Notes under the pieces: model-generated
The model's input: only the letters and a program-made list of their open reading frames with translations
Told to the model about the DNA's origin: nothing
Database searches by the model: none
Part shown: in pieces, positions 28,521 to 44,896 of the stretch
Numbering within the stretch: position 1 is the stretch's first letter
Layout: each line of letters begins with the position of its first letter
DNA from: Pseudomonadota bacterium
GTDB taxonomy: Bacteria > Pseudomonadota > Alphaproteobacteria > Sneathiellales > Sneathiellaceae
Reading direction: 5' to 3'
Assembly (NCBI GenBank): GCA_024743055.1
Contig: JANSXH010000009.1
Location: 124,001 to 188,000 of the forward strand
Length of the DNA stretch: 64,000 nt
Made by a program: the position numbers and the translations under genes

Positions 28521-29870
28521 ATGTTTCAGCAAATCAAAAAAACCATTTTAGGAGATGAGATCGAGGGTCAACTTCCGGGTCGGGTAAAGGATGCTATTGC
28601 CCGCCAGCAATCCCAATCAGAAGTGCTGATTGCCTGGGTACAGGTGTTTATCGTTATCACCTTCTCCTCCCTCTATGGCTTGTCGCCAAAGACATTTGCA
28701 GCCGATACCATGTTTGCGCCGGTTCCTTACGCCCTGGTTGCCTATGCAATTTTCACAATCCTGAGATTGATCCTTGCCTATACCAACAAAATCCCGGCCT
28801 GGTTCCTATCTTTTTCGGTGGTTGCCGATATCGTCTTGTTGATGTTTCTGATCTGGAGCTTTCATGTCCAGTATGAGCAGCCAGCGTCCTTTTATCTGAA
28901 GTCCCCTACATTGCTTTATGTGTTCATCTTTATCGCACTAAGAGCCCTGCGCTTTGAAGCATGGTACGTACTGCTAGCTGGCTTTTCGGCGGCTGCGGGC
29001 TGGATGGTTCTGCTCGGTTACGCCGTGTTCTGGGACGATGGCATGTCCCAGGTTACCCGGGACTATGTCGAATTCACTATGTCCCACAAGATCCTGTTAG
29101 GGGCCGAGTTTGACAAGGTCATCAGCATCATTGTTGTCACTTTGATCATGGCCTTAGTCATTGTTCGGGCCCGCCGCCTGCTGGTCAATTCCGTGGCGCA
29201 GGCGACAGCGGCAGAAGATCTTTCCCGGTTCTTTTCCCCTGAGATTGCTGATCAGATTACCCATTCAGAAGGCTGGATCGAGCCTGGCACAGGAGAGGCC
29301 AGAAATGCCGCAATTCTGCATTGCGACTTGCAAGGGTTCACCAAGCTCTCCATGGAAAGACCCGCCAATGAGGTCATCTCGTTGCTTGCAGAATATCAGT
29401 CGCGCCTGGTCCCCATTATTCAGCGCCATGGCGGGACAATCGACAAGTTTCTGGGTGACGGCATTTTGGCGACTTTTGGCGCAGCTGTGGCTACAGATCA
29501 CTATGCCTCCGACTGTTTGAATGCCATGGAGGACCTCATGGATGAAGCCGCTCTGTGGTCTCGAGACCGGGAAGCGGCCGGTAAAAATGGCATGACAATC
29601 CGATTTACCTCCGCTGTCGGCCCCATTGTGTTCGGCGCTGTGGGAGATGACAGTCGCCTTGAATATACCGTGATTGGAGAACCCGTAAATCTTGCCGCCA
29701 AGCTGGACAAACACGCCAAGGATGAGCAAGCCAACGCAGTGACCACAAGCGAGGCGGTGGAAGTAGCTAGAATTCAGGGATATGAACCCCGCAAGTCACT
29801 TGAAACCCGTGCCTCAAGAGATGTCGACGGCGTCTCCGGCACTGTTGATCTGGTGATCATAAAAAGCTGA
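28521..29870 (+). CDS. Membrane adenylate/guanylate cyclase-domain protein
   Basis: Protein of 449 aa with about six hydrophobic segments in residues 35-216 and a class III cyclase domain from about 260 to 425. The metal-binding Asp269 (CDLQGFT) and Asp313 (FLGDG) and the base-contacting Lys309 are present. The second base-contacting residue is Glu387 (IGEPVN) instead of the usual Asp, and the phosphate-binding Arg is replaced by Lys394 (AAKLDK); Asn390 is kept. It may make cAMP at low rate or be regulatory. It follows the methyltransferase gene and is convergent with the ABC permease genes. Confidence 0.87.
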   Translation: MFQQIKKTILGDEIEGQLPGRVKDAIARQQSQSEVLIAWVQVFIVITFSSLYGLSPKTFAADTMFAPVPYALVAYAIFTILRLILAYTNKIPAWFLSFSVVADIVLLMFLIWSFHVQYEQPASFYLKSPTLLYVFIFIALRALRFEAWYVLLAGFSAAAGWMVLLGYAVFWDDGMSQVTRDYVEFTMSHKILLGAEFDKVISIIVVTLIMALVIVRARRLLVNSVAQATAAEDLSRFFSPEIADQITHSEGWIEPGTGEARNAAILHCDLQGFTKLSMERPANEVISLLAEYQSRLVPIIQRHGGTIDKFLGDGILATFGAAVATDHYASDCLNAMEDLMDEAALWSRDREAAGKNGMTIRFTSAVGPIVFGAVGDDSRLEYTVIGEPVNLAAKLDKHAKDEQANAVTTSEAVEVARIQGYEPRKSLETRASRDVDGVSGTVDLVIIKS

Positions 29871-29872
29871 AA

Positions 29873-29893
29873 AAGTAGACGCGACGTCTATTT
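29873..29893. terminator. Short bidirectional hairpin after the cyclase gene
   Basis: A 9-base-pair stem with one G-U pair (AAGTAGACG / CGTCTATTT) has a three-base CGA loop. It lies between the convergent cyclase and ABC permease genes and runs into the permease stop. It is A-rich on one side and T-rich on the other, as expected of a small bidirectional terminator. Confidence 0.45.
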
Positions 29894-31072
29894 ATAAGGA
29901 TCCGCGGCGTCCCGCAGTCCGTCACCTAAGAAGTTAAAGGCCAACACCACGAGGATAACCGGCACCACCGGATAAATCAGCCAGGGCGTCGTCGCCACTG
30001 CGTTGATATTGGTTGTCTCATTGAGCAACACACCCCAGGAGGTGATTGGCGGCCTAAGTCCAAGACCGAGGAAGGAAAGTGCCGTTTCCCCCAGGATCAT
30101 GCTGGGCACGGCAAGGCTGGCACTGGCAATCAGATGGCTGGCAAAGGAGGGTAATAGATGGCGGCCGATTATGCGCTTAGGTTTTGCCCCCATAAGTTGT
30201 GCTGCGGTACAGAAATCCTCTTCGCGCAAGGATAGGAATTTCGATCGCACGGCACGCGCTAACCCAGGCCAATCGAGCAGCCCTAAAATAACTGTCAGCC
30301 CAAAAAATACTAAGATCGGCGACCAGGTCACCGGCAGGGCAGCCGACAGGGCCAGCCATAACGGAAGCTGAGGAAGCGATTTCAGGAGCTCAATCACCCG
30401 CTGGATCACGTTATCGATCCAGCCGCCATAATATCCGGAAATACCGCCCAAAATGATGCCGAGTGTGAAACTGATGGTAATCCCGATCAGACCGATGGTC
30501 AGGGAAATGCGGGTTCCGTAGATAATTCTGGAAAGAATATCGCGGCCAAGTCTGTCTGTGCCCAGCCAGAAAAAGGTTGCCCGCCGCTTGTCCGCCGCAC
30601 ATACAAGATGGGTCGAGGCCTCAAACATCCCCCAGAATTTATATTCGTCCCCTTTACAGAAGAAGCGCAACGGATAGACCTGTTTCGGATTGACCTCATA
30701 TTCCCGTTTCAGTGTTTCCCGGTTGAGCCTCTGTTTATACCCGTACACAAAAGGCCCGACAAACTCCCCGTCATGAAAGAGATGAATGGATTGCGGTGGC
30801 GCAAAGATGAACTTGGTATGCCGTGTGTGCAAATCGTAGGGTGCAAGAAACTCAGAAATCAAAATTGACAGATAAAAGAGCAGGAGCACGATACCACTAA
30901 TGACAGCGACCCTGTGGCGGCGAAACTTCCACCACATCATCTGCCATTGAGAGGCCATGTAAAACCGTTCCTGTTCCGGAGATAGAACTTCTACGGAATA
31001 AGGATCAAACGGTTCCTTGGAATGCCAGTGCTCCAGACGCTGATCTTTGTTCTGTCCGGTGGTATCCGTCAT
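29888..31072 (-). CDS. yejE: Oligopeptide-type ABC transporter permease (YejE-like)
   Basis: Inner-membrane permease of a peptide-type (family 5 substrate) ABC importer, DppC/YejE class. A cytoplasmic N-terminal region contains WWKFRRHRVAVISGIVLLLFY, then a long periplasmic loop (residues about 70-165). The membrane domain follows, with EAA-like coupling loop AAQLMGAKPKRIIGRHLLPS. LGTDRLGRDILSRIIYGTR is the class signature. The length of 394 aa and the large loop fit YejE better than DppC. Its ATG overlaps the YejB-like stop by four bases. Confidence 0.9.
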   Translation of the reverse strand: MTDTTGQNKDQRLEHWHSKEPFDPYSVEVLSPEQERFYMASQWQMMWWKFRRHRVAVISGIVLLLFYLSILISEFLAPYDLHTRHTKFIFAPPQSIHLFHDGEFVGPFVYGYKQRLNRETLKREYEVNPKQVYPLRFFCKGDEYKFWGMFEASTHLVCAADKRRATFFWLGTDRLGRDILSRIIYGTRISLTIGLIGITISFTLGIILGGISGYYGGWIDNVIQRVIELLKSLPQLPLWLALSAALPVTWSPILVFFGLTVILGLLDWPGLARAVRSKFLSLREEDFCTAAQLMGAKPKRIIGRHLLPSFASHLIASASLAVPSMILGETALSFLGLGLRPPITSWGVLLNETTNINAVATTPWLIYPVVPVILVVLAFNFLGDGLRDAADPYK

Positions 31073-32097
31073 TTTGTCGCCCCCCCGGACAAGCGAATGC
31101 GTGGATCCAATACTGCGAGAAGTATATCGGAAATAAACATTCCGATCACCGTCAGAAGGGCCAAAAACATAAGAAGCGATCCGGCCATATACTGATCCTG
31201 GTTCTGTAGTGCTTCAAGCAATAACGGGCCAACAGTCGGTAGGCTGAGAACCATACTGACGATTACAGATCCTGAAATCACATCCGGCAACAAATTTCCG
31301 ATATCCGCAATAAAGGGATTTAGAGACATGCGGATGGGATACTTGACAAGCGCTTTCAACCGGGGAACGCCCTTTGCTTTCGCTGTCGTCACATATTGTT
31401 TCTGTAATTCATCCAGCAGATTTGCTCTTAAGCGCCGGATCATAGAGGCTGTCCCACTGGTGCCGATAACGATAACAGGAATGATCATATGATCGACAAT
31501 AGACAGGAACTTATCGAAGCTCCAAGGCTGATCTATATACTCATCATCCATCAAGCCGCCGATGGAGATACCGAAATAAACATTGGCATAATAGAGCATG
31601 ACCATGGCGAGCAAGAAATTTGGCGTTGCCAGACCGAGATAGCCTATTAATGTAAATCCATAATCACCGATGGAATATTGACGGGTTGCCGAATAGACTC
31701 CTATGGGAAAAGCGACCACATAAATAAACAAGATGGTTGAGAAATTGACAGCAAAAGACAGCAACAGCCTGTCTCCTACCACCTCGCGAACGGGAAGGTC
31801 ATAGGCAAAGGACTGCCCCCAATCCCCTTGCAGCAGGCCGGAAAATCCGTCAGGGCCCGGCCATAAACCCATCCAGATCGCATATTGTTCGATCAGCGGT
31901 TTATCGAGAGAATACTGCTCCCGATAAAACGCGATTTTTGCCATGGCAGAGGCGGACTCGCCTTGGGATTTTAGTTCTTCAAGCTGGTTGGACAGGTAAT
32001 CACCAGGGGGCAACTGAATGATAATGAATGTCAGAATACTGATCACCAACAATGTCGGGATCATCACCAGTACTCTGTGAACAAAATAGGTAAACAT
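31069..32097 (-). CDS. yejB: Oligopeptide-type ABC transporter permease (YejB-like)
   Basis: Partner permease of the peptide importer, DppB/YejB class. The N-terminal YFVHRVLVMIPTLLVISILTF is the usual first membrane helix. The coupling loop YVTTAKAKGVPRLKALVKYPIR and the SGSVIVSMVLSLPTVGPLLLEAL stretch are characteristic. The length of 342 aa is normal. It is coupled to yejE by overlap, and it lies 158 bases after the substrate-binding protein gene, a gap in which I see no clear hairpin or promoter. Confidence 0.9.
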   Translation of the reverse strand: MFTYFVHRVLVMIPTLLVISILTFIIIQLPPGDYLSNQLEELKSQGESASAMAKIAFYREQYSLDKPLIEQYAIWMGLWPGPDGFSGLLQGDWGQSFAYDLPVREVVGDRLLLSFAVNFSTILFIYVVAFPIGVYSATRQYSIGDYGFTLIGYLGLATPNFLLAMVMLYYANVYFGISIGGLMDDEYIDQPWSFDKFLSIVDHMIIPVIVIGTSGTASMIRRLRANLLDELQKQYVTTAKAKGVPRLKALVKYPIRMSLNPFIADIGNLLPDVISGSVIVSMVLSLPTVGPLLLEALQNQDQYMAGSLLMFLALLTVIGMFISDILLAVLDPRIRLSGGATK

Positions 32098-32255
32098 TCA
32101 GCCCTGTCCTGCGCGGAGCTTGTTTTTGGCCCCAACTCTTATCATTTGCGCATTGTTCACTTAAAAATACGCTGTCGTCAACATACCGCCCGCGATTTCA
32201 ATAAAATGCGAGAAATTATGCATCGGCCTGAGCCAATGCTATCGGTGATACCTGC

Positions 32256-34154
32256 CTAATTATCAAACCAGAACAAGTCTGGATGATAAATGCCAAACTG
32301 CGCCCCGGGATTCCAATTGAAAATTGCCTCCTGCGGCACATTCTTCAAGTCATCCTTGACGACAATTGGCTGCAGAATTCCTCCCACCACGCCGATCGTG
32401 AATTGCTGATCGACATGTATCTGAAGCATCTGCTTCCAGATATCGGCTTTCTCAGTTTCATCTGTCGTCAAAAGCCATTTTTCATATAATGCCATCAGTT
32501 CTTGGGCTTCCGGCAAATCGGCGGCCTCACCTGATTTTCCTTTAGTCTCGAAATACTGACCCCATTTCGGCCATTGATAACTTATCTGAGAGGTTGGAGC
32601 GCGGGTTGCCGGGCTGCTATCTGCGTTCGGGATGCCATCTTCAAACCCGGACCACACTGACATCACTGTTTCCCCTGAAAAGATACGATTGCGGAATACG
32701 GCCCGCTGAGATGGCTTGGTAAATACCGATATACCCAGCTCCTTCCAAGAATCATCAATCAGTTCAAGAATATCAGACTGTTCCGTGTCCTCTCCTGCTG
32801 TTTCAATGACGACAACAAGTGGCTCTCCATTCGGAAGCAGCCGGTTTCCATCGTCATCCCTTTTGGTGAGCCCCATTTCATCCAGCAATTCGTTTGCCTT
32901 GTCTTGATCAAGGGTAGCCCATTTTGTCCTCAATTCCTCAGTATAGAAGGGACTCTGGCTCTGAACGGAATTATTCCCCTCTACTGCAAGTCCGAAGAAC
33001 AGGGTGTCATTGATTTCTTCCCGATCAATTCCAAGGGATAGTGCCCGACGGAACCGTGGATCCCGCATCAGGCCACGCCACATTTCATCCTCACTATTCA
33101 GGTTGGGATAAAGGACAAAATGCGAGCCCCGGACCGTTGGCCATAACAGTGTTTTATAGTGGGAGCGTTCCTCTCCCTCTTTGAGGAAAGTCGCGTCCTG
33201 TAACTGCAGGCCGCGGGCCTGTAAATCAACGTCCCCCGACGCTGCTTTTGCCGCGATCAGTTTGCTTTCCGATACTGTGAAGATTAAGCGATCAATATAG
33301 GGAAGTTGCCGTCCCTCCGGGTCGGTACGATGAAAATACGGGTTCCTTTCGCCAACAAAACGCGTCGCTGGGGAAGACGTGGTATTCCGCCAGGGCTGTA
33401 AGGTCGGCAGTTTGGGATTGTCAAATTTATACAAATTATCGAGCCGGTTATGCTCCGAGGCCCAGGCTTTGAGCTTGATTTTCTGTATTTTGTTCAGCTT
33501 CGACTGGTCAATATATTTTATATGATACTTTTTCAGATAATGAGCCGGCCGGTAAATTAGCAAAGGTGAGGCCGCAGCGAGCTGAGGCAGAAAATTCGGA
33601 TTTGGAACGGACCAGGAATAGACAATAGTTTGCGCATCCGGGAAAGTGACATTGGGCGCCTCTCCATTCACTAGGACACTTGCTGGGGGTCCCGCTGGAG
33701 ACAGCTTTTCATTATTGGCGACATCTTCCCACCAATAGCGAAAATCTTCAGTTGTGAATGAATGCCCGTCTGACCACTTATGCCCTTTGCGTAGTTTCAG
33801 AGTAAAGATGCGCCCTTCCTCGACATCAATGGATTCCAGAATATCCGGCGCGATTTCCAGGTCCCTTGTATAGCCAACCAGACGCGCGTATCCATAGACG
33901 AACATTAACTTCACGTCGGACGGATTTCCGATCAACGTGCGGAGCTCTCCTCCATATTGACCGACCGTCTGATCATCAGCCGGTCTGACGACCAACGGAG
34001 TTTCCGGCACTCTTTCTGCCATCGCTGGGAGCGCACCGCTTTCAACCTTCTCCTTTAAGAAAGGAATCTCGAGCGCATTTACATTCGATGATACAAGGAC
34101 CGTGAGACTACATAGTAATAGTACAGGCCATTTTTTTAATAACCCGATCGTCAA
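32256..34154 (-). CDS. yejA: Extracellular solute-binding protein, family 5 (YejA-like)
   Basis: Periplasmic substrate-binding protein of an oligopeptide-type ABC importer. A Sec signal peptide is evident at the N-terminus (LLKKWPVLLLCSLTVLVSS, then VNALE cleavage region). Family 5 features include YTRDLEIAPDILES, FTLKLRKGHKWSDGHSFTTED and the RRALSLGIDREEIN segment. The length of 632 aa is typical of YejA-like proteins, which take up peptides, in some bacteria including microcin C. The actual ligand cannot be read. Its ATG overlaps the yejF stop by four bases. Confidence 0.9.
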   Translation of the reverse strand: MTIGLLKKWPVLLLCSLTVLVSSNVNALEIPFLKEKVESGALPAMAERVPETPLVVRPADDQTVGQYGGELRTLIGNPSDVKLMFVYGYARLVGYTRDLEIAPDILESIDVEEGRIFTLKLRKGHKWSDGHSFTTEDFRYWWEDVANNEKLSPAGPPASVLVNGEAPNVTFPDAQTIVYSWSVPNPNFLPQLAAASPLLIYRPAHYLKKYHIKYIDQSKLNKIQKIKLKAWASEHNRLDNLYKFDNPKLPTLQPWRNTTSSPATRFVGERNPYFHRTDPEGRQLPYIDRLIFTVSESKLIAAKAASGDVDLQARGLQLQDATFLKEGEERSHYKTLLWPTVRGSHFVLYPNLNSEDEMWRGLMRDPRFRRALSLGIDREEINDTLFFGLAVEGNNSVQSQSPFYTEELRTKWATLDQDKANELLDEMGLTKRDDDGNRLLPNGEPLVVVIETAGEDTEQSDILELIDDSWKELGISVFTKPSQRAVFRNRIFSGETVMSVWSGFEDGIPNADSSPATRAPTSQISYQWPKWGQYFETKGKSGEAADLPEAQELMALYEKWLLTTDETEKADIWKQMLQIHVDQQFTIGVVGGILQPIVVKDDLKNVPQEAIFNWNPGAQFGIYHPDLFWFDN

Positions 34155-36043
34155 GTCGCAAACTCCTTCATATTCGTATTTTCTTCGACCCGGACATAAT
34201 GCCCTCCCCCGATATCCATCATGACCGGACTGCTATCGCTGTCCACCGTAAACGGTTGTGGCCATAGCTCGGGATTAGATGCTTTTTCCTCAACAAGATT
34301 TGAGAAATCCAATCGATGATTTGGATCTGGCTCCGGAACAGCCGCCAGAAGCCGTTTTGTGTAGGGATGAACCGGATTATTGAAAAGAGCCGCCTTCGGC
34401 GCCGTTTCTACTAGTTTTCCCTTGCACATCACGGCGATCCGGTCCGCGATATAATCAACCACTGCCAGATTATGGGAGATAAACAGGTAGGTCAGGCCCA
34501 GCTCGGCCTGAAGATCTTTCAACAAATTCAGGATCTGAGCTTGAATAGAGACATCCAACGCCGATACCGGCTCATCACAAATCAAAAGATCAGGCTTCAA
34601 TGCCAGCGCCCTGGCGATACCAATACGTTGCCGCTGGCCACCAGAAAAAGAATGAGGATATCGGCGCAGGAAACGGATGTCCAGCCCGACCAGTGTCATA
34701 AGCTCTTTTACAGTCTCTTCCCTCTCGGCAACCGTTCCCACATTATGGATAACCAAGGGTTCTGAGATAATGTCAAAGACGGTCATACGCGGGTTTAAGG
34801 AAGAAAACGGATCCTGAAAGATGAACTGTACTTTATTGCGAAAATCAAAAAGCGCATCGCCCTTTAAGGCCAAGACGTCAACTTCCTGACCTCGATCATT
34901 ATAAGTGACCGACCCTTCTGTCGCAGAGATAGCTCTCAGGATCATCTTGGATAAGGTCGTCTTTCCACATCCGGATTCCCCGACCAGCCCCAGACATTCT
35001 CCGGGGCGAATAAAGAAATCGACGTTATCCACCGCCAGCACTTCTCCGCCCGGCTTGGATCCAAACAGGGAAGATTTACGGGTATAAAATCTCTTGGACA
35101 AGCCATCAACCTGCAAGATCGGCTTATCGTCGGCTTCGGATATTTGCCTTGGATTAGCCTGTTCAAGAAACCGGCTATCCTTGTCCCGCTTTATCTCACG
35201 AATAGGAGTCAGCCGTTCTCCGGGCTCCATATTGAACCTAGGAATAGCCCGCATCAATGCCTTCAAATAAGGATGGCTTGGCGCCTTGAAAATATCATCA
35301 AGGGTCCCCTGCTCCATGATTTTGCCGTGATACATCACGACAATTTCGTCTGCCATACTGGCGACAACACCAAGATCATGGGTAATCATCAGGATGGCCA
35401 TACCCAGTTGTTTTTGCAGATCCTGCATCAGGCTGAGAATTTGCGCCTGGATCGTTACATCCAGAGCCGTTGTCGGCTCATCGGCAATTAACAAGGCTGG
35501 CTTGCAGATCATTGCCATGGCAATCATCGCCCGCTGCCGCAATCCGCCTGAAAGCTCAAACGGGTAGGTATGAAAGGCTGCTTCCGGGTCTGGAAATCCG
35601 ACCAAGCGCAGCATATCGATGGAAACCTTCTCGCCTTCTTCCTTGGTCTTCTTATGATGGAGATGCAGCGCTTCGGAAATCTGGTTTCCGATTGTATGAA
35701 GCGGCGACAATGAAGTCATCGGCTCCTGAAAAATAATCGACATTCGCCCGCCGCGAATGCTCCTCATCTCCTTGCTATCCGGTTTGAGTTTGGCGATATC
35801 ATAAAAGACGCCAGACTTGTCGGGGTCAAAAAATAATATTTCACCAGCCGTAATCCGCGCCGGTTTTGGCAGGATCGACATAATCGCCTGACTGATCACT
35901 GATTTACCTGATCCGGACTCCCCAACCAGCGCGACGGTCTTGCCTTCAGGAATCCGAAAGCTTACGCCGTCAACGGCTTTTATCGTGCCTTCTGCAACCC
36001 GAAATTCCACTTTCAAGTCTCTGACAAGCAGCACATTTGCCAT
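34151..36043 (-). CDS. yejF: Dual ATP-binding subunit of oligopeptide ABC transporter (YejF-like)
   Basis: Cytoplasmic ATPase with two complete nucleotide-binding domains in one chain of 630 aa. The first Walker A is GESGSGKS at residues 41-48, with signature [15 protein letters not shown] and Walker [13 protein letters not shown]. The second Walker A is [10 protein letters not shown] near residue 353, with signature [15 protein letters not shown] and [12 protein letters not shown]. The C-terminal [16 protein letters not shown] is the oligopeptide-type extension. It pairs with the YejA/B/E-like proteins downstream. Its ATG overlaps the PH-like protein stop by one base. Confidence 0.93.
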
Positions 36044-36573
36044 CAGCCCAGATATCCTCTTTCAGCTGTCGGCTCATTTTGGAAATGGGCGATGCCCAGG
36101 GCCTGCAAATTCCGTCGGGTGGACGGATCAAATGACAGCCCGTTCTTGCGAGCGCCCGAATACAACTGACGGACAAGCTTTTCAAAATCGCTTATTGTGG
36201 AATCAATGCTCAATCGAAATCCCTTACTCTTTATTTTGAGATGCATCCAGCCTGCTTCCCGATCACGACGTGTCGAGTAATAGCTGAGCTTGAAGCCTCC
36301 CAACTCCTCCCACCTTATCGTTTTTTCAGCATACCATTTGAATGGTTGTCTGACGCATATTCCGGTATCGCTTAATTCTATGTGCGAAAAATGACGAAAT
36401 ACGGTTCTTATTCCATAGCAAAAAAACACGACAAATAAAAATATCAACAAATAGACAATGACAGATGTCGGGTTCAACAACAAGAGCGGAACCAAGGTTA
36501 GTATTATTCCCAAAATTGCCCTTACATAGCTTCCAAACAGGCTTTGAAAAGAGTAAGAGAAGGATTTAACCAT
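36043..36573 (-). CDS. Membrane protein with PH-like domain, unknown function
   Basis: I do not recognise a specific family with certainty. The 176-residue protein has two adjacent hydrophobic segments (residues about 15-58: AILGIILTLVPLLLL and VIVYLLIFLFVVFFCYGI). A soluble beta-rich domain follows (HIELSDTGICVRQPFKWYAEKTIRWEELGGFKLSYY), which resembles bacterial PH-like domains seen by eye. It sits between the deacetylase-like gene (51-base gap) and yejF (one-base overlap), so it belongs to the same transcript as the importer. Confidence 0.65.
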   Translation of the reverse strand: MVKSFSYSFQSLFGSYVRAILGIILTLVPLLLLNPTSVIVYLLIFLFVVFFCYGIRTVFRHFSHIELSDTGICVRQPFKWYAEKTIRWEELGGFKLSYYSTRRDREAGWMHLKIKSKGFRLSIDSTISDFEKLVRQLYSGARKNGLSFDPSTRRNLQALGIAHFQNEPTAERGYLG

Positions 36574-36624: not shown

Positions 36625-37392
36625 CTATTCTATATTATCATTAAGGGCGACACCTGTTCGTAATGGTACCCACCTTACGCTTTCATGTTCCGTTAAAAAT
36701 GACAATAAGCGGAAAATAGACGCCCAAATTTCTTCATCATGGACCAAATGATGCGTCAGCAAGCCCGTGGGCTCGTCTTTTAAAATACCGTTTTTTCGGC
36801 GCGCCCGCAAATGATTCAGGGCCTTGTCCACCAGCATATCATCTTCAACGGGTCTTCGGTTGTTGCGCCAATCTATGACATCAACATGGGTATTAATCTC
36901 TAGAAGACCTTTCTCAGGGTAAATCTCCGCGCGGGGTTGATACCGAGAAACGGCCAAATAGTTAAGCTGGGCCAATGAAGAGAGAGTAGCGGATCCAATT
37001 CTGTTCCAGGGAGGCACAAATACGGGGTAAAACTGGTCCTTAAAGATGTCTGACAGAATACCCTTCCCGGCTTTAATGGACTGGATGATATCGTCCTGGT
37101 CCCGCGTATCCGGAAACTCAGATTTCTTATCACCTTCCGGTGCAAAGTTAAGATGCTGAAATCCATGTTGCACGATGGTGCAACCGTCCAGATGGTCTAG
37201 CAAGGCGGGGCTGGCCCGCTCAGGAATGATTGCGAGGGTAAGCGGTATGTCAAAGTGGTTTCGCAGGCTAACAAGGCGATCAAGGGCAGAAGTCGGCTCC
37301 GTCAGGTCGTCATCCCGCCACCAGAAAGTAGCGATATTACCTTGCTCTTTCCAGATATTGAGTTCCTCAACGAGATCTGATAGCTGAGCCAT
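36625..37392 (-). CDS. Polysaccharide deacetylase-like (NodB-fold) protein
   Basis: Predicted carbohydrate esterase 4-type fold, 255 aa. The N-terminal FWWRDDDLTEPTSALDRL supplies the acidic residues. IVQHGFQHLNFAPEG supplies the two histidines, as in the H-x4-H zinc motif. PVFVPPWNRIG and the C-terminal LLTHHLVHDEE complete the fold. There is no signal peptide, so it probably acts in the cytoplasm on a nucleotide-linked or lipid-linked sugar, not on an exported glycan. It overlaps the end of the glycosyltransferase gene by one base. Confidence 0.82.
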   Translation of the reverse strand: MAQLSDLVEELNIWKEQGNIATFWWRDDDLTEPTSALDRLVSLRNHFDIPLTLAIIPERASPALLDHLDGCTIVQHGFQHLNFAPEGDKKSEFPDTRDQDDIIQSIKAGKGILSDIFKDQFYPVFVPPWNRIGSATLSSLAQLNYLAVSRYQPRAEIYPEKGLLEINTHVDVIDWRNNRRPVEDDMLVDKALNHLRARRKNGILKDEPTGLLTHHLVHDEEIWASIFRLLSFLTEHESVRWVPLRTGVALNDNIE

Positions 37393-38552
37393 TAGTTATT
37401 CCCGTACCAAGTCTTGATCAGGTCTACGGTTCGGGAGGCCCCGTCAACGTCGATTTCTGCCGTCGCTGGCGGGCCTGACAAAGCTTCCGTTACCATAGAG
37501 GCGAGCTTTTCCGGTGTCAGTCCTTCCTCATCAGCGATTTTCAGAACGCCTTTTTCCGCCAGAAGCCGAGCCCTCAAAGTTTGCTCTGTTTCGAGCCCGC
37601 CTGCATAGGGAACAATAACGGCGCGACATTTCGCATACAGTACTTCCATGACCGTGTTATATCCGCCCTGGCTAATGGAGAGATCGCAATTCATCAGAAG
37701 GGTTGTAAAATCCTTGCGTGCCCGTTCCACGATAACGCCTGTTGGCGCTAGGGAGCTGAGTTCCTCAAAGACTTCGTTTTCCACCGTGGCCCCGACCATG
37801 ACCCGCCAGGTCTTGTTCTTTGCGGACGAGAGTTCCCTCGCCTTCATGGCCGTCTTTAAGAGATTTGTACCAACCGCACCGCCGCCACTAGAGACAATGA
37901 CTTCTCCGGCTCCCGGCGCATCATTTCCACCCTTAACCCCGGTCCGATCGACGACATAGCCAGTGTAGTTTATTTTGTCTTTTATTCGGCTGGTGTGGGG
38001 AAAGGTTTCATCCAGGGAAATAAGTTCCGGGTCGCCATGGACGAGGACATGATCAAAATATTTCTCCACCAAACCCAGCATCTCATCGTTCCGTCCAGGC
38101 TTTGTCTGGGCCACCAGAATATCACGCACAGAGGAAACGATCAGCGGCTGAGGGTTGGCCCCTTTCGCCGCCTCAAGCAAAGGAACCAGCTCGAACCTCA
38201 TTTGTCTGCGTCCAAACGGAAACAACTCGAAAATCAGGATATCTGGCTGAACTTCCTCCCATAGCTCCAAAAGAACCGCAGCTCTTTTTTCCCGCCAGCC
38301 ATCGTCAATCTGTTGCCCTTCTTCATCCACCAGTACTTTGAAATAAAGATCGGTCGCCCGGGTCGCTGGCAGTTGAACAAGCCTTGCGCCGCCGAGATCG
38401 ACATCAATTTCATGACCGCCTGACACAACAACGACATCAAATTCTGCTCGCATCAGGTTGCGAGTTAAAGTCGCGGTCCGACGGAGATGGCCTATCCCAA
38501 GCAAATGCTGAACATAAAACAGGATTTTTGGGGATCGCTCACTCACACTCAT
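37392..38552 (-). CDS. Predicted glycosyltransferase (COG4671-like, GT-B fold)
   Basis: Protein of 386 aa with a MurG/GT28-like two-domain fold. The N-terminal KILFYVQHLLGIGHLRRT has the glycine-rich loop of this group. The C-terminal domain has EVIVSSGGGAVGTNLLKTAM and the acceptor-nucleotide region NCDLSISQGGYNTVMEVLYAKCRAVIVPYAGGLETEQ (about 290-325). Donor and acceptor are unknown. Its start overlaps the histidine phosphatase stop by four bases. Confidence 0.83.
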   Translation of the reverse strand: MSVSERSPKILFYVQHLLGIGHLRRTATLTRNLMRAEFDVVVVSGGHEIDVDLGGARLVQLPATRATDLYFKVLVDEEGQQIDDGWREKRAAVLLELWEEVQPDILIFELFPFGRRQMRFELVPLLEAAKGANPQPLIVSSVRDILVAQTKPGRNDEMLGLVEKYFDHVLVHGDPELISLDETFPHTSRIKDKINYTGYVVDRTGVKGGNDAPGAGEVIVSSGGGAVGTNLLKTAMKARELSSAKNKTWRVMVGATVENEVFEELSSLAPTGVIVERARKDFTTLLMNCDLSISQGGYNTVMEVLYAKCRAVIVPYAGGLETEQTLRARLLAEKGVLKIADEEGLTPEKLASMVTEALSGPPATAEIDVDGASRTVDLIKTWYGNN

Positions 38553-39133
38553 AAATTTTCCAAACTGATATTTAGTTGTTCTGCCTTAATTTGCTTCGTG
38601 TCGCTGACAGAAAACAGATGGGCTGCGGACCAGTCAATCTTTTCCGCAAATGGCTCTTTCATGTCCCAGCCAAAACTGAGCGCCAGGATCGCCCGAATGA
38701 CCCCTTTATGGGTCACGGCTATGGTATCCTCTTGCAATTCCGCAATCCAAGGCCTCAATCGCTCCATGACCTGGGCAGGACTTTCGCCATGGGGAGGGGT
38801 CATGTTGAAACCCCTTGCCTCATTCTCTGACATCTTCGGGCCGAGCTCCGCTCGTAATTCTGGGAGGCGCTTTCCTTCCCAATCTCCCCAATCCATCTCT
38901 ATCAGCGTTTGCTCAAGCCGTGGGTCGCTGGCTTTTAGAAGAGCCGCGGTTTCGCGGGCGCGCTTAAGGGGGCTTGTGACACATCTGAAAGTATTGAACT
39001 TTGAGGGGATTTGCCGCGATTCAAGTTCCGCAATCCCCTCGGAACACAATTCGATATCCTGCCGTCCCTGAATTCTCTTTTCCAGATTCCAGGTGGTTTT
39101 GCCGTGGCGTAGAACAAGGAGCCGGGTCATCAC
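38549..39133 (-). CDS. Histidine phosphatase family protein
   Basis: Phosphoglycerate-mutase-like histidine phosphatase of 194 aa. The catalytic motif LVLRHGKTTWNLEKRIQG begins at about residue 6, with the phosphohistidine at His10. The acid-base Glu region is QTLIEMDWGDWEG, and the second His is in IAVTHKGVIRAIL. It may remove phosphate from a sugar phosphate in the surrounding glycan pathway, an inference from neighbours. The gene overlaps its neighbours by four bases on both sides. Confidence 0.87.
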   Translation of the reverse strand: MMTRLLVLRHGKTTWNLEKRIQGRQDIELCSEGIAELESRQIPSKFNTFRCVTSPLKRARETAALLKASDPRLEQTLIEMDWGDWEGKRLPELRAELGPKMSENEARGFNMTPPHGESPAQVMERLRPWIAELQEDTIAVTHKGVIRAILALSFGWDMKEPFAEKIDWSAAHLFSVSDTKQIKAEQLNISLENL

Positions 39134-40263
39134 TTAGCCACCGAGAGTTGGGATTTGAGAATGTCCACTGCATGGGTCATAGATCTTTCTTCCACCACAA
39201 ACCGTCGGGCGGCCTCAGACATTTGAGAGCGTCGTGATGAGCTATATAGCAATTTATCTATATAGGTTGCAAAGGCCGCACCGTCCCCTTCAGGTGCTAA
39301 CAATCCTGTCTCTCCGTCCAGGACAACATCCGGAACCCCCCGCACATGGCCGGCAACAACTGGTAAGCCGCAACATTGAGCTTCGAGAAATGCCATGCCA
39401 TAGGCCTCACCAGCGGCAGGCCAGACATAGAGATCTGATGCACTGTAAACAGCTGCCAGCTGCCCCAATTGCAAGGTCCCGAGATACACGGCCTTTTCAC
39501 CCAGAACCGAAAGAACTCCTTCTACTTCCTGCCGTTTTTCGCCATCTCCAACGACGATAAGTTGCCAGTTATCGAATTTCAATCGGGCAAGGTTTTGGCC
39601 CAATTCTCTGTAAGACTGCATTTTATCACCGGATCTCATCATGGCGACAGATAGGAGATTGATCCTGTCTTTAAGACCACCAGCTTCCTCAATCGCCTGA
39701 CCCACGTCATAGGTCCTATCCATTGCCGCAAGAAAGGGATCCACATCCAAGAAGGGAGGAAGATAAACCAGGCGATTTTCAGGCCCAATCAACGGTGCCA
39801 GGCAAGCACCGTCCAAGGTAGTCATGTGAAAGACGCAATCAGCTGCCCGGATGGCCTGCTCCGCCCCTTCATACCCCATATGCCAGGGACCGTTGAGCTG
39901 CTTAGGTGCGTGACTGGCCTCCGCAATATAATAAGGTATATCGAAATACTGGCAGATGGCGGGGCCGATCCAGTCCGGCGCCTTGTGATAGACGTGATAT
40001 GTGAACCAGGCTTCCGGAACTTCCTCAGGAGAAGCCGACCACCGCTTAATCAGCCTAGCCACCTCGGCCTCTGAATTATCGCGCATTCCTTGCTGAATTG
40101 CCTGATCACCTGTTTTATCGAAAGTCCTTAACTTCGACGCGAGCTCCACGCTATATCCAGCCTGTGTTAGGGCCGCCATCAACAATCTCGCCATCCGTCG
40201 ATCACCGGATGGAACGTCATGATCCGGCGGCTTCATTGGAGCGTAAAAAGCAACTCTCATCAT
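39130..40263 (-). CDS. Glycosyltransferase family 4-type protein
   Basis: GT-B glycosyltransferase of 377 aa. The N-terminal RVAFYAPMKPPDHDVPSGDRRMARLLMAAL is characteristic of a subgroup found in alphaproteobacteria. The nucleotide-sugar binding region includes SDLYVWPAAGEAYGMAFLEAQCCGLPVVAG with the E-x7-E pattern (residues about 285-315). Donor and acceptor are unknown. It is coupled by overlap to both adjacent genes. Confidence 0.88.
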   Translation of the reverse strand: MMRVAFYAPMKPPDHDVPSGDRRMARLLMAALTQAGYSVELASKLRTFDKTGDQAIQQGMRDNSEAEVARLIKRWSASPEEVPEAWFTYHVYHKAPDWIGPAICQYFDIPYYIAEASHAPKQLNGPWHMGYEGAEQAIRAADCVFHMTTLDGACLAPLIGPENRLVYLPPFLDVDPFLAAMDRTYDVGQAIEEAGGLKDRINLLSVAMMRSGDKMQSYRELGQNLARLKFDNWQLIVVGDGEKRQEVEGVLSVLGEKAVYLGTLQLGQLAAVYSASDLYVWPAAGEAYGMAFLEAQCCGLPVVAGHVRGVPDVVLDGETGLLAPEGDGAAFATYIDKLLYSSSRRSQMSEAARRFVVEERSMTHAVDILKSQLSVAK

Positions 40264-41555
40264 TATGCCACTGACGTAGAGGCTGGGGAATGCACCCCTA
40301 ACTTGGTCAGCAACGATTGATTGACGATCGTTGAATCAAACTTGTTGCGGAGATAGTCATCGCCCGCGTCAGAAAGTGATGTCCGCATTTCAGGCGACTG
40401 GCAAAGAGCTTGCAAAGCCGTTGCCAAGGCTGCCGGGTCCCGCTCTTCAACAAGCAACCCGGTTTTCCCGTCAACAATCAACTCCGGAATTGCTGAAACG
40501 TTGGTGGACAAGACAGCAACCTTCTGACTCTGCGCTTCCATGAGGACATTCGGCAATCCGTCCCGATCCCCATCCTCAGCAATTCTGCTGGCAAGCACAA
40601 AAACATCTGAACTCCGCAAGGTCTCGATCACCTGCTGCTGTGGCTGAGCACCAAGCCATTCTATTCGATCTGATATCCCGAGAGTATCTGCCAGTTCCCT
40701 CAATTTCTCCAGCAGCGGGCCGCCACCGATATGTGTGAATTGCCAGTTCAATTCAGGCGGTAAGTCAACAAGCGCATGCAGAAGATCATCATAGCCTTTC
40801 TTTTTTACAGCCCTGCCCACCGAGACAATCTTTACCGGATCAGATGTGTCTGATCCGTCTCGACTATGATCCCTTGAAGAAAGTTTCGGAAATCTGGACA
40901 GGTCCAGCCCATGATACATGAGTTCAATTTTGTCAGGGTCAGCGGCGAGTTTTTTTAGATAAGCTGCGTTAAAGGACGTACAGGTCACCAACCAATCGAT
41001 ATCTTGAAGTTTCTCTTTCAATTCCCATTCCGGGCTTGTCCAGATGTCCTTTGCATGGGCAGAACAACTCCAGGGTAAATCCCTGATAATCGCTGCATAA
41101 CGGGTCACGGACGCCGGCGTGTGCAGAAAATGCGCATAGAGGCTGCCGATTTCATCGGGCAATTCTTCTGCCAGGACGAGCGCCTGACCAAATCGCCTGA
41201 CCCGGTTCGGGGTCAAATCCCGCCGAAGGTCTTTAAGCCATATTTTCCGCGCGACACGATATCCTTCCCTCTTCCTCACCGACCACCAGGCCTTTAGGAC
41301 CCGCAAGGGCTCCTGATAGAGATATTCGGGCAAATAAGAAACCGGAGCAGTTATCTCATTGTGAATTGGGTGTCGGGCTTTGTCAGTCGGGTGGCGGAGC
41401 GAGATAAACTGCATTTTCACGCCATTGTTCTGAAGGAACAAGAGCTCTTGTGCAATAAAGGTTTCAGAAAGGCGTGGATACCCCTTCAAAACAACTGCAA
41501 CCGTATCATTTCTTAACGGTGAGCTCAGCTTAAATCTCCTGAATGGATAGAGCAA
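40263..41555 (-). CDS. Glycosyltransferase (colanic-acid-type GT4)
   Basis: GT-B glycosyltransferase of 430 aa. It begins FRRFKLSSPLRND, then VAVVLKGYPRLSETFIAQELLFL, the start seen in GT4 enzymes such as those of colanic acid and other exopolysaccharide clusters. The donor-binding part has VSVGRAVKKKGYDDLLHAL and VFVLASRIAEDGDRDGLPNVLMEAQSQKVAVL with the E-x7-E-like pattern. It is the first gene of the reverse-strand glycan operon and is divergent from the ABC-exporter-like gene. Confidence 0.88.
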   Translation of the reverse strand: MLYPFRRFKLSSPLRNDTVAVVLKGYPRLSETFIAQELLFLQNNGVKMQFISLRHPTDKARHPIHNEITAPVSYLPEYLYQEPLRVLKAWWSVRKREGYRVARKIWLKDLRRDLTPNRVRRFGQALVLAEELPDEIGSLYAHFLHTPASVTRYAAIIRDLPWSCSAHAKDIWTSPEWELKEKLQDIDWLVTCTSFNAAYLKKLAADPDKIELMYHGLDLSRFPKLSSRDHSRDGSDTSDPVKIVSVGRAVKKKGYDDLLHALVDLPPELNWQFTHIGGGPLLEKLRELADTLGISDRIEWLGAQPQQQVIETLRSSDVFVLASRIAEDGDRDGLPNVLMEAQSQKVAVLSTNVSAIPELIVDGKTGLLVEERDPAALATALQALCQSPEMRTSLSDAGDDYLRNKFDSTIVNQSLLTKLGVHSPASTSVA

Positions 41556-41768: not shown

Positions 41769-44423
41769 ATGGAACATAGTATTTACAAGTATATTCTGCG
41801 CTACAGTAAGAAGCAGCAGATCATACTGACTTTGATGGCCATTACGTCGTTTCCGTTTCTTTACGTTTATCTTCAGATTCCGGCCCTTATAATTGACCAA
41901 GCTATTCAAGGAAATGATATCTCCTTTCCTGTGGAATATATGGGGATCGAATTTGATCAGTTGGAGTTCCTGTATCTGACTGTTGGCTTGTTCCTGTTAC
42001 TTGTGGTTGCCAACCAATCCTTCAAATACATGATCAATGTGTATCAGGGTGTATCCGGTGAGAGGATGCTGCGGCGGCTCCGCTATGAGCTTTACAGCCG
42101 AATTCTGCGCTTCCCGATGCCGACCTTCAAGAAGAAAAGCTCGGGCGAGATCATTCCGATGGTCACTGCAGAGGTTGAGCCCCTTGGCGGCTTTATCGGT
42201 GAGGCCTTTGCCTTACCCATATTCCAGGGCGGCTATTTGCTGGTTATTATTACTTTTCTTCTGGTCCAGAACTGGATCATGGCCCTGGCTGCGATCGCCC
42301 TTTATCCGCTACAAGCCTATTTCATTCCCATACTACAGAAGAAGGTGAACCTGCTCGGGAAAGAGAGGGTTCGTCTGGTGCGTGTTCTGTCCGACCAGAT
42401 CGGGGAAACGGTCAATGGTGCGGAAGAAATCCATGCCCATGATGGCTCGAACTTCATGCGCGCCAAGTTTTCCAGCCAGCTCAACAAGATCTATACGGTC
42501 CGCTACCGGATATATATCCTCAAATTCATCGTCAAATTCCTCAACAATTTTATTCAGCAACTGGGTCCGTTCTTCTTCTATGCCATTGGCGGTACCATGG
42601 TTATTAACGGCACATTGGAAATTGGTGTGCTGGTTGCAGCGATTGCAGCCCACAAGGAAATGGCTGCGCCTTGGAAAGAGCTTCTCGCTTATTACCAACG
42701 ACGCGAGGATGCACGCATTAAGTATGAACAGGTTGTCGAGCAGTTTGAGCCAGCAGGAATGCGCGATGAAAGCAACCAGTTGGAAGAGCCAGATACCATT
42801 CCCAATCTCACGGGTGAGATGGTTGGGAATAATATTGTTCTGGCAGATGACACAGGCTCGACCCTTCTAGAAAGCCTGAATGTGAGATTTCGCCTGGATG
42901 AACGGGTAGCGGTTGTCGGTCCTGCTGGTTCCGGCCGTGAGGCTCTCACACATGTTTTGGCCCGAATAATTGACCCGGACAGAGGCCAAGTTTCAGCCGG
43001 CGACATAGATCTAGTCAAAGCACCCGAGGCAATCGTAGGCCGCCGCATCGCCTATGTCGGCCAGCATGGATATGTTTTCAACTCAACGCTCGGGGACAAC
43101 TTGTTCTTTGGCCTCAAGCATCGCCCGTTGCATGAGATTGACTATGATGGCGAAGAAAAAAGCGCCCGTGAAAACTATATTCGCGAAGCAAAGCTAACCG
43201 GTAATTCCGTCGATGACGCCGAAGCCAATTGGCTGGATTATGGCCTCGCCAGCGTCTCGGAAAATGGCGGACTGGATTCCCGGGCGCTTGAAGTTCTGGA
43301 AATGGTGGACTTAAGCGAAGATGTTTACCAATTGGGTCTGCGAAGCACTCTGGATCCGGAAGAGGCACCTGAAGCTGCCGACTTGATCCTGTCCGCCAGA
43401 AAGCGCTTTTTTGAAAAACTCGAAGCAGACCCGAGCCTTAAAAACATGATCGAGGCGTTCGAAGAAGACAAATATAACACCAATGCAACTCTTGCCGAAA
43501 ACTTGCTTTTTGGCACCCCCGTAGGCACCGCGTTTGACCTCGACCGGATGGCAGAAAATGCTTACGTGCAAAAAGTCATTGAGGACGCGGATTTAACCGA
43601 AACTTTCCTACGCATGGGATATCAGGTTGCGACATTGATGGTCGAACTGTTTGCCGGATTGCCGCCAGATCATGAATTCTTCCAGCTTTACGGCTTTATC
43701 TCATCCGAGGAGCTTCCGGAATACCAAGCGATGATCAGCCGCATTGATTGGGATCATCTGGATCAACTTCGTGATGAAGATCGTTTAAGGTTCATGTCCT
43801 TGCCCTTCAAGGTTATTCCCTCCCGACATCGTCTCGGCGTTCTTACCGATGAGATTCAGGAAAAAATCGTTCAGGCTCGGCATAAATTCGCGGAAAGTCT
43901 GCCCGAAGAGTTGCAGGGAAGCGTCGCCTTTTTTGAAGAAGATGCCTACAGCGCTGCGACAAACCTTCAGGACAACATTCTGTTCGGCAAGATCGCCTTT
44001 GGATATGCACAGGCCGCCGAAAAAATTGGTTCGCTACTATCGACCGTTGTCGATGAAATGGATCTGAAGCGGATCATCATTGGTGTGGGTCTTAACTTTC
44101 GGGTGGGAACAGCGGGCGCCCGGCTTAGTGCAACACAGCGGCAGAAACTGTGCTTGGCGCGCGCCATTATAAAACATCCTGACGTCCTCATCCTTAACCA
44201 GGCCACCTCCTCATTTGATGCGGCAACGGAGCAGAAACTCATGGGAAATATCCTTAAGGAGTTCGATGGCCGCTGCCTGGTTTGGTCTTTGGATCACGCT
44301 GATAAGACAAAAGACTTCGATAACGTTCTAATATTAAAAAGTGGAAGAGTAGCGGAATCAGGTCCTCCTACGAAATTGACGACTGATAGCCTCCAGTACA
44401 AAGAAATGCTGGCGGGCTCCTAG
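41769..44423 (+). CDS. ABC-exporter-like membrane protein with degenerate ATPase motifs and a large insertion
   Basis: Residues 1-330 are a type I exporter membrane domain with six segments. The single nucleotide-binding domain is altered: Walker A is GPAGSGREA with Arg390 in place of Lys, the signature is LSATQ (786-790) in place of LSGGQ, and Walker B reads VLILNQA with Asn810 and Gln811 in place of Asp-Glu. The Q-loop Gln432 and H-loop His843 remain. Between 449 and about 727 lies an acidic, helical insertion carrying two further copies of the post-Q-loop N-L-x-x-N-L-L-F-G-like segment. The reading frame is intact. The start at 41769 gives MEHSIYKYILRYSKKQQ; ATGs at 41640 and 41718 lack good ribosome-binding sites. 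It may not hydrolyse ATP normally. Confidence 0.88.
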   Translation: MEHSIYKYILRYSKKQQIILTLMAITSFPFLYVYLQIPALIIDQAIQGNDISFPVEYMGIEFDQLEFLYLTVGLFLLLVVANQSFKYMINVYQGVSGERMLRRLRYELYSRILRFPMPTFKKKSSGEIIPMVTAEVEPLGGFIGEAFALPIFQGGYLLVIITFLLVQNWIMALAAIALYPLQAYFIPILQKKVNLLGKERVRLVRVLSDQIGETVNGAEEIHAHDGSNFMRAKFSSQLNKIYTVRYRIYILKFIVKFLNNFIQQLGPFFFYAIGGTMVINGTLEIGVLVAAIAAHKEMAAPWKELLAYYQRREDARIKYEQVVEQFEPAGMRDESNQLEEPDTIPNLTGEMVGNNIVLADDTGSTLLESLNVRFRLDERVAVVGPAGSGREALTHVLARIIDPDRGQVSAGDIDLVKAPEAIVGRRIAYVGQHGYVFNSTLGDNLFFGLKHRPLHEIDYDGEEKSARENYIREAKLTGNSVDDAEANWLDYGLASVSENGGLDSRALEVLEMVDLSEDVYQLGLRSTLDPEEAPEAADLILSARKRFFEKLEADPSLKNMIEAFEEDKYNTNATLAENLLFGTPVGTAFDLDRMAENAYVQKVIEDADLTETFLRMGYQVATLMVELFAGLPPDHEFFQLYGFISSEELPEYQAMISRIDWDHLDQLRDEDRLRFMSLPFKVIPSRHRLGVLTDEIQEKIVQARHKFAESLPEELQGSVAFFEEDAYSAATNLQDNILFGKIAFGYAQAAEKIGSLLSTVVDEMDLKRIIIGVGLNFRVGTAGARLSATQRQKLCLARAIIKHPDVLILNQATSSFDAATEQKLMGNILKEFDGRCLVWSLDHADKTKDFDNVLILKSGRVAESGPPTKLTTDSLQYKEMLAGS

Positions 44424-44440
44424 GAAAAGGGAGACATTCG

Positions 44441-44896
44441 GTGAGCTTAAAAGAAGAAGTTGAAATTCTGAGGCAAATTCCATTATTTGCCAAAATTGAA
44501 CCCTCCAAGATCAAATTGCTGGCCTTTACATCTGAGCGCCTGACGTTTCAGCCTGGAGATTTTCTCTGCAAACAAGGGGACATTGGTGACGCGGCCTATT
44601 TTATTATGGCTGGCGAAGCGGATGTCATTGTTGATACGCCTTCAGGCCCTTTGACCGTTGCCACACTTGGGAAAAATGATGTGGTTGGGGAAATCGCTAT
44701 CCTGATTGACATACCGAGAACTGCGACCATTCAGGCGGCGACAGAACTGACAACTCTTCGAATTACCAAGGATGTGTTTTTCAGGATGGTCACTGAGTTT
44801 CCTGAAATGGCGGTCGAACTTATGAGAGTTCTAGCGGAGCGCCTAGTCCGCACGACGGAAGAACTTCAGAAGGCCAAGGAAGAAAATCATTCTTAA
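44441..44896 (+). CDS. Stand-alone cyclic-nucleotide-binding domain protein
   Basis: Protein of 151 aa consisting of a single cNMP-binding fold and a C-terminal helix, without a helix-turn-helix, so it is not a CRP-type regulator. The phosphate-binding cassette is well kept: GEIAILIDIPRTATI with Gly83, Glu84, Arg93 and Thr94, which argues for real cAMP or cGMP binding. The start is a GTG with AAAAGGGAG upstream. It lies 17 bases after the ABC-exporter-like gene, almost certainly co-transcribed, and probably acts with that protein. This pairing is the basis of the main hypothesis for the window. Confidence 0.9.
   Translation: MSLKEEVEILRQIPLFAKIEPSKIKLLAFTSERLTFQPGDFLCKQGDIGDAAYFIMAGEADVIVDTPSGPLTVATLGKNDVVGEIAILIDIPRTATIQAATELTTLRITKDVFFRMVTEFPEMAVELMRVLAERLVRTTEELQKAKEENHS

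Follow-up and report, generated by a model that had tools for sequence, protein, structure and literature searches.

The 64,000-nucleotide stretch analysed here (the window; positions 124,001 to 188,000 of contig JANSXH010000009.1, assembly GCA_024743055.1, Sneathiellaceae, Alphaproteobacteria) carries a gene for an ABC-exporter-like protein, termed ABC*, which has a degenerate ATPase and an insert of about 300 residues in its nucleotide-binding domain (NBD). The ABC* frame (41769..44423, forward strand, as are all ABC* motifs below) is open over all of its 884 codons, and its start is credible because Met occupies position 1 in all 19 sequences of the alignment (A2), the window counted. A gene for a stand-alone cyclic-nucleotide-binding (CNB) protein of 151 residues (44441..44896, forward strand) starts 17 bases beyond the ABC* stop codon. 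The window genome contains one ABC* copy, and its nearest relatives are Sneathiella records, with identities of up to 82%.

The membrane domain of ABC* is that of an exporter, matching PF00664 (ABC_membrane) at 92.3 bits against a cut-off of 28. The Pfam ABC_tran match is split into two separate stretches because about 300 residues are inserted between the Q-loop and the signature. Walker A reads GPAGSGRE (42918..42941), with Arg390 in place of Lys and Glu391 in place of the Mg-coordinating Ser/Thr; the signature is LSATQRQ (residues 786–792; 44124..44144); and Walker B is DVLILNQATS (44181..44210), with Asn810 and Gln811 in place of Asp and the catalytic Glu. Gln432 is present in the Q-loop (YVGQHG; 43053..43070), as is the H-loop His843 (44295..44297), and these two are the only canonical residues among seven scored positions (Lys, Ser/Thr, Gln, second signature Gly, Asp, Glu, and His). 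The canonical motifs of an ATP-driven exporter are therefore not present as a set, and a classification of ABC* among ATP-driven transporters is not warranted. A first-pass annotation of the window had named Arg390, LSATQ (786–790), Asn810–Gln811, Gln432 and His843, all of which are confirmed; the change at Glu391, the repeated insert and the setting among polysaccharide genes (both described below) were absent from it. In the same genome, five ordinary exporters (seven loci compared, two being second views of the same genes) have Walker A Lys and Ser/Thr, SGGQ/E, Asp-Glu and His throughout.

Catalytic decay extends across the family. From 153 extracted ABC* frames, the window among them, the 146 of at least 700 residues were aligned; counts out of 141 exclude five weak relatives and include the window, and counts out of 140 also leave out the window row. 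Canonical residues number zero in 14 proteins, one in 49, two in 51, three in 22 and four in five, with none above four. The near-universal losses in the alignment are those of the Mg-binding Ser/Thr (kept in 6/140, with Glu or Asp instead in 117/140), of the Gly-Gly signature (found in 0/141) and, mostly, of Walker B Asp (kept in 16/140). Walker A Lys is kept in 77/140 and replaced by Arg in 57, catalytic Glu is kept in 73/140, Q-loop Gln in 40/140 and H-loop His in 12/140. Lys, Ser/Thr, Asp and Glu occur all together in two of the 141 (L109 and L156). Homologs with ordinary motifs, which the first-pass annotation had said would overturn its view of a degenerate ATPase, were thus not found. 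As to its question whether the Arg/Asn/Gln substitutions and the gene pair are conserved together, the pair is conserved (see below) and the exact substitutions are not, given the frequency of Lys and Glu; similarly, the retention of Gln and His that it pointed out holds in the window and not family-wide. Judged by these motifs, ABC* is almost certainly dead as an ATPase.

Substitute residues might instead carry out the chemistry, which would make ABC* an active if unusual ATPase; this would fit the catalytic Glu kept in about half of the relatives and the four-residue combination of L109 and L156, which are the members that might be likeliest to retain some activity. However, no consistent substitute pattern is seen: on a FastTree tree, rooted by assumption with the weak relatives, switches between canonical and non-canonical states number 4 to 20 depending on position. 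Such an enzyme is very improbable. On the same tree, parsimony gives a root state that is non-canonical at all seven positions.

Loss of catalytic residues could also mark a decaying pseudogene, and one copy that does not lie at a contig end (L069) is seen only as a 432-residue frame. As a general account, decay is ruled out by the absence of stop codons inside the listed ABC* matches and by dN/dS values well below 1 (0.03–0.35 in 23 of 25 close pairs; dS is not estimable in the other two); its likelihood is negligible, in line with the first-pass annotation, which had argued against a pseudogene. Purifying selection on ABC* is well supported by these sequence comparisons.

A composite ATP site needs a Gly-Gly signature from the degenerate subunit. 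This bears on a possible heterodimeric exporter in which ABC* would be the degenerate half and a canonical half-exporter encoded elsewhere would provide one working ATP site. Degenerate halves are common among type I exporters (PMC7756269, text seen in part), and the window genome has at least five canonical exporters as potential partners. Nevertheless, the signature that a heterodimer subunit would supply is absent from ABC* in 141/141 proteins, and no second exporter-type ABC gene was recognised by eye in neighbour families of at least eight loci, although a distant gene is possible; in the Sinorhizobium meliloti region described below, the ABC genes besides ABC* form an importer-type operon. 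With neither a Gly-Gly signature nor a partner family among the neighbours inspected, a heterodimer with a canonical partner is disfavoured and rather unlikely.

The insert accounts for the unusual length of the NBD: Walker A and the signature are 402 residues apart in the window ABC*, as compared with 104 in the five ordinary exporters. It comprises residues ~449–740 (43113..43988), is helical in models and is near-constant in length, with 273 or 274 residues in 97/141 proteins and a range of 230–345 (counted from residue 448 to 722). Three repeat copies are recognisable: the post-Q-loop motif itself (copy 1, residues 431–448; 43059..43112), FEEDKYNTNATLAENLLFG (copy 2, residues 564–582; 43458..43514) and FEEDAYSAATNLQDNILFG (copy 3, residues 722–740; 43932..43988). 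In profile–profile comparisons, residues 546–690 match 691–800 with E = 3.6e-13 and residues 500–600 match 660–760 with E = 7e-17, and the first segment (415–545) matches the other two with E values of 1.8e-7 (over 22 columns) and 2e-6; 13 controls (five membrane-domain blocks and eight column shuffles) gave E values of 0.0097 to 0.73. In exporters, the Q-loop/helical segment couples the NBD to the membrane domain. As every copy carries a variant of the usual post-Q-loop motif (copy 2, 'YNxNATxAENLLFG'), this coupling segment appears, on sequence grounds, to have been copied, leaving three degenerate copies.

A profile of the insert region matched 243 sequences of solved structures; in the best 60 of these, the top-scoring stretch lies at one or the other end of the profile, in the ordinary NBD parts. 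The AlphaFold2 model of full-length ABC* (19 sequences) is of moderate quality (pLDDT 72.5, pTM 0.60); in the model of the NBD part (pLDDT 77.6), the core blocks exceed 90, and the insert is helical and less certain. The best 50 matches in structure searches are ABC proteins and one ABC-containing KATP complex. The predicted NBD core is ordinary in fold.

The CNB protein matches PF00027 at 67.4 bits (cut-off 27.5) and no other Pfam family at E <= 0.001. With 151 residues, this one domain and no C-terminal DNA-binding domain found, it does not have the build of a Crp/Fnr transcription factor. Its phosphate-binding cassette, GEIAILIDIPRTATI (44687..44731, forward strand), is intact, with Glu84 and Arg93, as the first-pass annotation had read it along with the 17-base gap and the bare domain; the cassette Glu is present in 133 and the Arg in 137 of 137 proteins, the window counted.

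These figures bear on the possibility that ABC* binds ATP without hydrolysing it and serves as an ATP-level sensor, the CNB protein being a structural subunit. Lys or Arg survives at the Walker A position in 134/140 relatives, and confidence in the model of the NBD core is high. By contrast, the residue that would coordinate Mg is replaced by an acid in most relatives, S. meliloti ABC* has Gly at the Lys position, and the near-invariant ligand site is the CNB cassette, not the P-loop. An ATP sensor is unlikely, if slightly less so than the heterodimer.

Pairing of the two genes is the rule. Among 147 loci (window and weak relatives left out, contig-end fragments included), CNB is adjacent to ABC* in 128, fused to its C-terminus in seven, oddly placed in one and without a match in the other 11; the gap between the two genes has a median of about 27 bases, and fused and split forms are related by a single change on the tree. 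A CNB gene lying beside unrelated genes in most genomes, which would have spoken against the pairing proposed in the first-pass annotation, was thus not observed. Three of the 11 loci without CNB (L047, L054 and L113) break off at a contig edge close to the gene. The genomes of the remaining eight were searched: six have CNB elsewhere (49–69% identical), one (63% complete) has only a 30% match, and one has no CNB at E <= 1e-10. In a sample of 385 alphaproteobacterial genomes, ABC* was found in 131 and CNB (E <= 1e-30) in 125; the two occur together in 121 genomes, ABC* without CNB in 10, CNB without ABC* in four, and neither in 250. Functional pairing of ABC* and CNB is therefore very likely. 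The four genomes with CNB and no ABC* match differ among themselves: in G025, which is 86% complete, glycosyltransferase relatives lie beside CNB; in G175 and G271, CNB is more distant (44–46%), a weak cyclase match lies about 3 kb off, and no glycan genes are present within 17 kb. The fourth, G376, is a useful test case for CNB acting alone.

Nucleotide cyclases are candidate sources of cyclic nucleotide monophosphate (cNMP). The window encodes two class III nucleotide cyclases (18049–19770 and 28521–29870), the closer one 11.9 kb from ABC*; since the window genome has 19 matches to PF00211, this proximity means little. Across the family, 7/147 loci have a class III cyclase no more than 1.8 kb from ABC* and in the same orientation (upstream in L138, where ABC* and CNB are fused and the cyclase is just upstream, and in L175; downstream past CNB in L124, L127, L136, L079 and L184), as compared with a chance expectation of about 0.8 loci by hand-made sums (454 cyclases, ~136 Mb, 32 genomes). 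This adjacency is only suggestive, because three of the seven loci belong to one family and the 1.8-kb limit was picked after looking. The cyclases of L138, L127, L136 and L124 strongly resemble the one in the S. meliloti region, with E values of 2.3e-80 to 2.3e-55.

Neighbouring cyclases would also be expected if ABC*, CNB and a cyclase formed a Pycsar-like anti-phage effector system. The CNB domain matches Pycsar effector models with a best E of 5e-17, and CNB domains are broadly alike. An adjacent pyrimidine cyclase was not found as a regular partner, a cyclase being near in just the seven of 147 loci, and ABC* is mostly single-copy and syntenic with glycan genes. A defence system, for which only weak model matches were obtained, is highly improbable.

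In the window, the genes next to ABC* point to glycan synthesis. On the reverse strand, divergent from ABC*, lie a GT4 glycosyltransferase (40263..41555; relatives in 88/126 loci), a second GT4 glycosyltransferase (39130..40263; 85/126), a histidine phosphatase (38549..39133; 77/126), a GT28-type glycosyltransferase (37392..38552; 88/126), a polysaccharide-deacetylase-like gene with no Pfam match of its own (36625..37392; 61/126; 34% identical to an annotated S. meliloti deacetylase) and a small membrane protein with two hydrophobic segments (36043..36573; 32/126). These counts concern 126 loci outside Sneathiella, many on short contigs, with relatives accepted at E <= 1e-8, and are upper figures because the two GT4 genes may cross-match; under stricter clustering, the two GT4 genes are grouped in 53 and 61 loci and the GT28-type gene in 48. 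The three genes that follow CNB in the window have relatives in few of the 126 loci (0, 0 and 5). A simple scan for hydrophobic segments marks just two members of the core set as apparently membrane-embedded, namely ABC*, with five such segments, and the small protein, with two. Further along the reverse strand lies a peptide-type ABC importer operon (29888..36043; two permeases, a binding protein and a double ATPase), whose synteny with ABC* extends to Sinorhizobium, Rhizobium and Azospirillum; whether it belongs to the ABC* system is uncertain. In R. leguminosarum, the importer, three glycosyltransferase genes, ABC* and CNB are consecutive. In Azospirillum B510, a methyltransferase, an ABC* of 1047 codons, the size of a fused form, and the importer are found, with no glycosyltransferases in the 20 kb shown.

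The counterpart region of S. meliloti RCAM1750 runs in the order importer, a 'hypothetical' gene with glycosyltransferase similarity, GT4, GT28-type, methyltransferase, ABC*, CNB and FkbM methyltransferase; the GT28-type gene is missing from the RCAM1750 gene table and is seen at the same place in strain 1021. Farther up lie a deacetylase, another GT4 gene and a class III cyclase. Between the window and S. meliloti, identities are 56, 42 and 44% for the glycosyltransferases, 34% for the deacetylase, 38% for ABC*, 58% for CNB and 49–66% for the importer; the 44% match pairs the window gene 39130..40263 with an S. meliloti GT4 gene that, from gene order, is probably SMb21252. The RCAM1750 CNB gene (L226:13387-13851) is annotated as 'Crp/Fnr family transcriptional regulator', and its 154-residue counterpart in strain 1021 has the bare CNB layout. 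On pSymB of strain 1021 (NC_003078.1, L225:10578-13287), ABC* is split over two frames, while strains 2011, Rm41 and RCAM1750 have it in one intact 903-residue frame; the split is either a sequencing error or a strain-specific break, which matters for testing the gene in that strain.

In the portions of the published genetics drawn on here, a surface polysaccharide that is as yet uncharacterised, the phazolicin-protecting polysaccharide (PPP), depends on nine genes in the interval from smb21252 to smb21271, and insertions in the region lower fitness and tolerance under phazolicin (Travin et al., 2023; PMC10128002). Mutants of smb21252 and smb21265 have a phazolicin minimal inhibitory concentration (MIC) of 0.18 as compared with 1.47 ug/ml, and cyaA is strongly depleted in the phazolicin screen, insertions in it cutting tolerance (PMC10128002). 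Seven of the nine PPP genes are up during myxobacterial attack (PMC10315480, in the text seen). Nearby, smb21247, smb21248 and smb21249 are assigned as a sugar deacetylase, an aminotransferase and a sulfotransferase, and the nodP2–smb21248 cluster shows Clr-dependent activation, possibly indirect (Zou et al., 2017; PMC5498481, likewise in part). Counterparts of these three genes stand in the same order in the S. meliloti region examined, and counting from smb21249 would put GT4 at smb21252 and ABC* with CNB at about smb21267–smb21270, within the PPP interval. The window has the gene content of a PPP-type cluster, namely a matching glycosyltransferase set, ABC* and CNB. Synteny and the published genetics of the S. 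meliloti region together make it probable that ABC* and CNB serve a surface-glycan pathway. Among the matches listed from openly licensed literature, in the text available, no description of the dead ATPase or of the ABC*–CNB pair was found.

The 131 ABC*-positive genomes among the 385 were detected with an insert-only query (E <= 0.001) and mostly have a single copy; three are weak (G022, G154 and G331), and some matches are contig-end fragments. A 40-row profile searched against a phylum-wide sample, partly shared with the first, found 32/398 genomes at E <= 1e-10, all but one of which are Alphaproteobacteria; the exception matches just in part, in the ordinary NBD portion. A second class of the phylum gave 2/229 matching genomes at E <= 1e-12; the two belong to one genus, and CNB is adjacent in each, which suggests horizontal transfer or a binning error. 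These two (L223/G947 and L224/G830) carry ABC* at 46–47% and CNB at 52–53% identity. Among 261 plasmid records, many of them strains of one species, named carriers include Rhizobium (144), Sinorhizobium (80), Ensifer (9), Azospirillum (5), Ruegeria (5) and Sulfitobacter (4). The weak relatives (L185–L189) are proteins of ~1,000–1,060 residues, all five CNB-fused with a looser cassette, and occur in multiple copies in some genomes (three matches in G154, two in G331); matches in the Ruegeria and Sulfitobacter plasmid records are similarly weak.

We favour, with moderate confidence, the reading that ABC* has lost its ATPase and serves surface-glycan assembly as a membrane gate or scaffold under cyclic-nucleotide control. 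Its starting points, read directly in the sequence, are that the catalytic residues have decayed, that the NBD carries an insert, that ABC* and CNB are paired, that the cNMP cassette is intact and that glycosyltransferase genes lie nearby. In the mechanism proposed, an ABC-exporter membrane domain has been kept while the NBD, judged by its motifs, would be past hydrolysing ATP; this NBD, with its repeated Q-loop/helical coupling segment, would work with the CNB partner next door or fused to it. Binding of cNMP to CNB would shift the paired NBDs, so that the membrane domain is opened, closed or organised, and the membrane domain would gate or scaffold assembly and translocation of a surface glycan of the Sinorhizobium PPP type, with glycan synthesis, a gradient or nothing at all as the energy source. 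We infer gating because it best joins a preserved sensor to a preserved, motorless body. Control of ABC* by cNMP is fairly likely; cAMP may be the ligand of CNB and the signal that gates transport. Whether ABC* is a conduit for the substrate or a scaffold is evenly balanced. Its action may still be transporter-like by analogy, which is conceivable because SbmA-type proteins move substrates without ATP on this membrane fold. The most specific form of the proposal, in which the ATP motor of an ABC exporter has been exchanged for cNMP control, the pseudo-NBD and its repeats relaying the signal to the membrane domain to gate glycan export or assembly post-translationally, is tentative and falls somewhat short of even chances.

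Several observations weigh against the favoured reading. L109 might retain some activity, as it has an LSGAQ signature and keeps Lys, Thr, Asp and Glu, with Arg for His. Nucleotide binding without hydrolysis is possible because Walker A Lys/Arg survives so widely. Cyclase adjacency is rare and its distance limit post hoc. A relative of the GT4 gene at 40263–41555 was not seen in 38/126 loci in the stretch examined, one inspected Ruegeria-type relative is surrounded by housekeeping genes, and G376 (L239) has CNB beside relatives of the deacetylase, the small membrane protein and the importer ATPase with no ABC* match. In S. meliloti, ABC* and CNB are candidate PPP genes by position only, because the text consulted comes without the list of the nine genes. 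In the same text, an independent cyaA mutant has an MIC of 0.74 as compared with 1.47, a small change according to the authors, who suggest that cyaA may work via transcription (PMC10128002).

If the favoured reading is true, ABC* would illustrate a bacterial route from pump to signal-gated device in a group, the ABC exporters, otherwise defined by its ATP motor. It would also offer a mechanism for an uncharacterised rhizobial surface polysaccharide tied to peptide-antibiotic tolerance, and possibly a direct, non-transcriptional target of cAMP or cGMP in cyclase-rich genomes. With the gene pair at hand, the question can be put to the test in Sinorhizobium.

Compared with known systems, ABC* shares the ABC_membrane domain and RecA-like NBD core of type I (ABCB/MsbA-like) exporters, with structural matches to TAP1, HlyB, TmrAB and Atm1, and differs in its lost catalytic motifs, its repeated insert of ~300 residues and its CNB partner. 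NBS-degenerate heterodimeric exporters such as TM287/288 and TmrAB have non-canonical catalytic motifs in one subunit, whereas in ABC* the signature is degenerate too and no partner is seen. SUR1/SUR2 and CFTR are ABC-exporter frames turned channel regulator or channel; in them, one ATP site or more is retained, and a partner domain that binds cNMP is not known. SbmA/BacA lack NBDs, whereas ABC* retains a conserved pseudo-NBD. In MloK1 and SthK, which are cNMP-gated, and in BcsA, a c-di-GMP-gated glycan synthase, a second-messenger domain controls a membrane conduit; those systems use other membrane folds, and here the sensor is paired with an ABC pseudo-exporter. Exporters associated with TIGR03896 have working ATPases. 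The bacteriocin-type export operons to which they belong likewise combine a cNMP-binding protein with ABC export genes, but CNB scores 41.1 bits against the TIGR03896 model, well under its cut-off of 161.05. What ABC* has in common with SbmA/BacA (SLiPT), in the text available, is an ABC-exporter-type membrane domain working without ATP hydrolysis (PMC13316013). In the S. meliloti PPP region, the importer, the deacetylase, ABC*, CNB and three of the glycosyltransferases all have counterparts; the region is known from genetics, and mention of a dead ATPase or of the CNB pair was not seen in the available text (PMC10128002).

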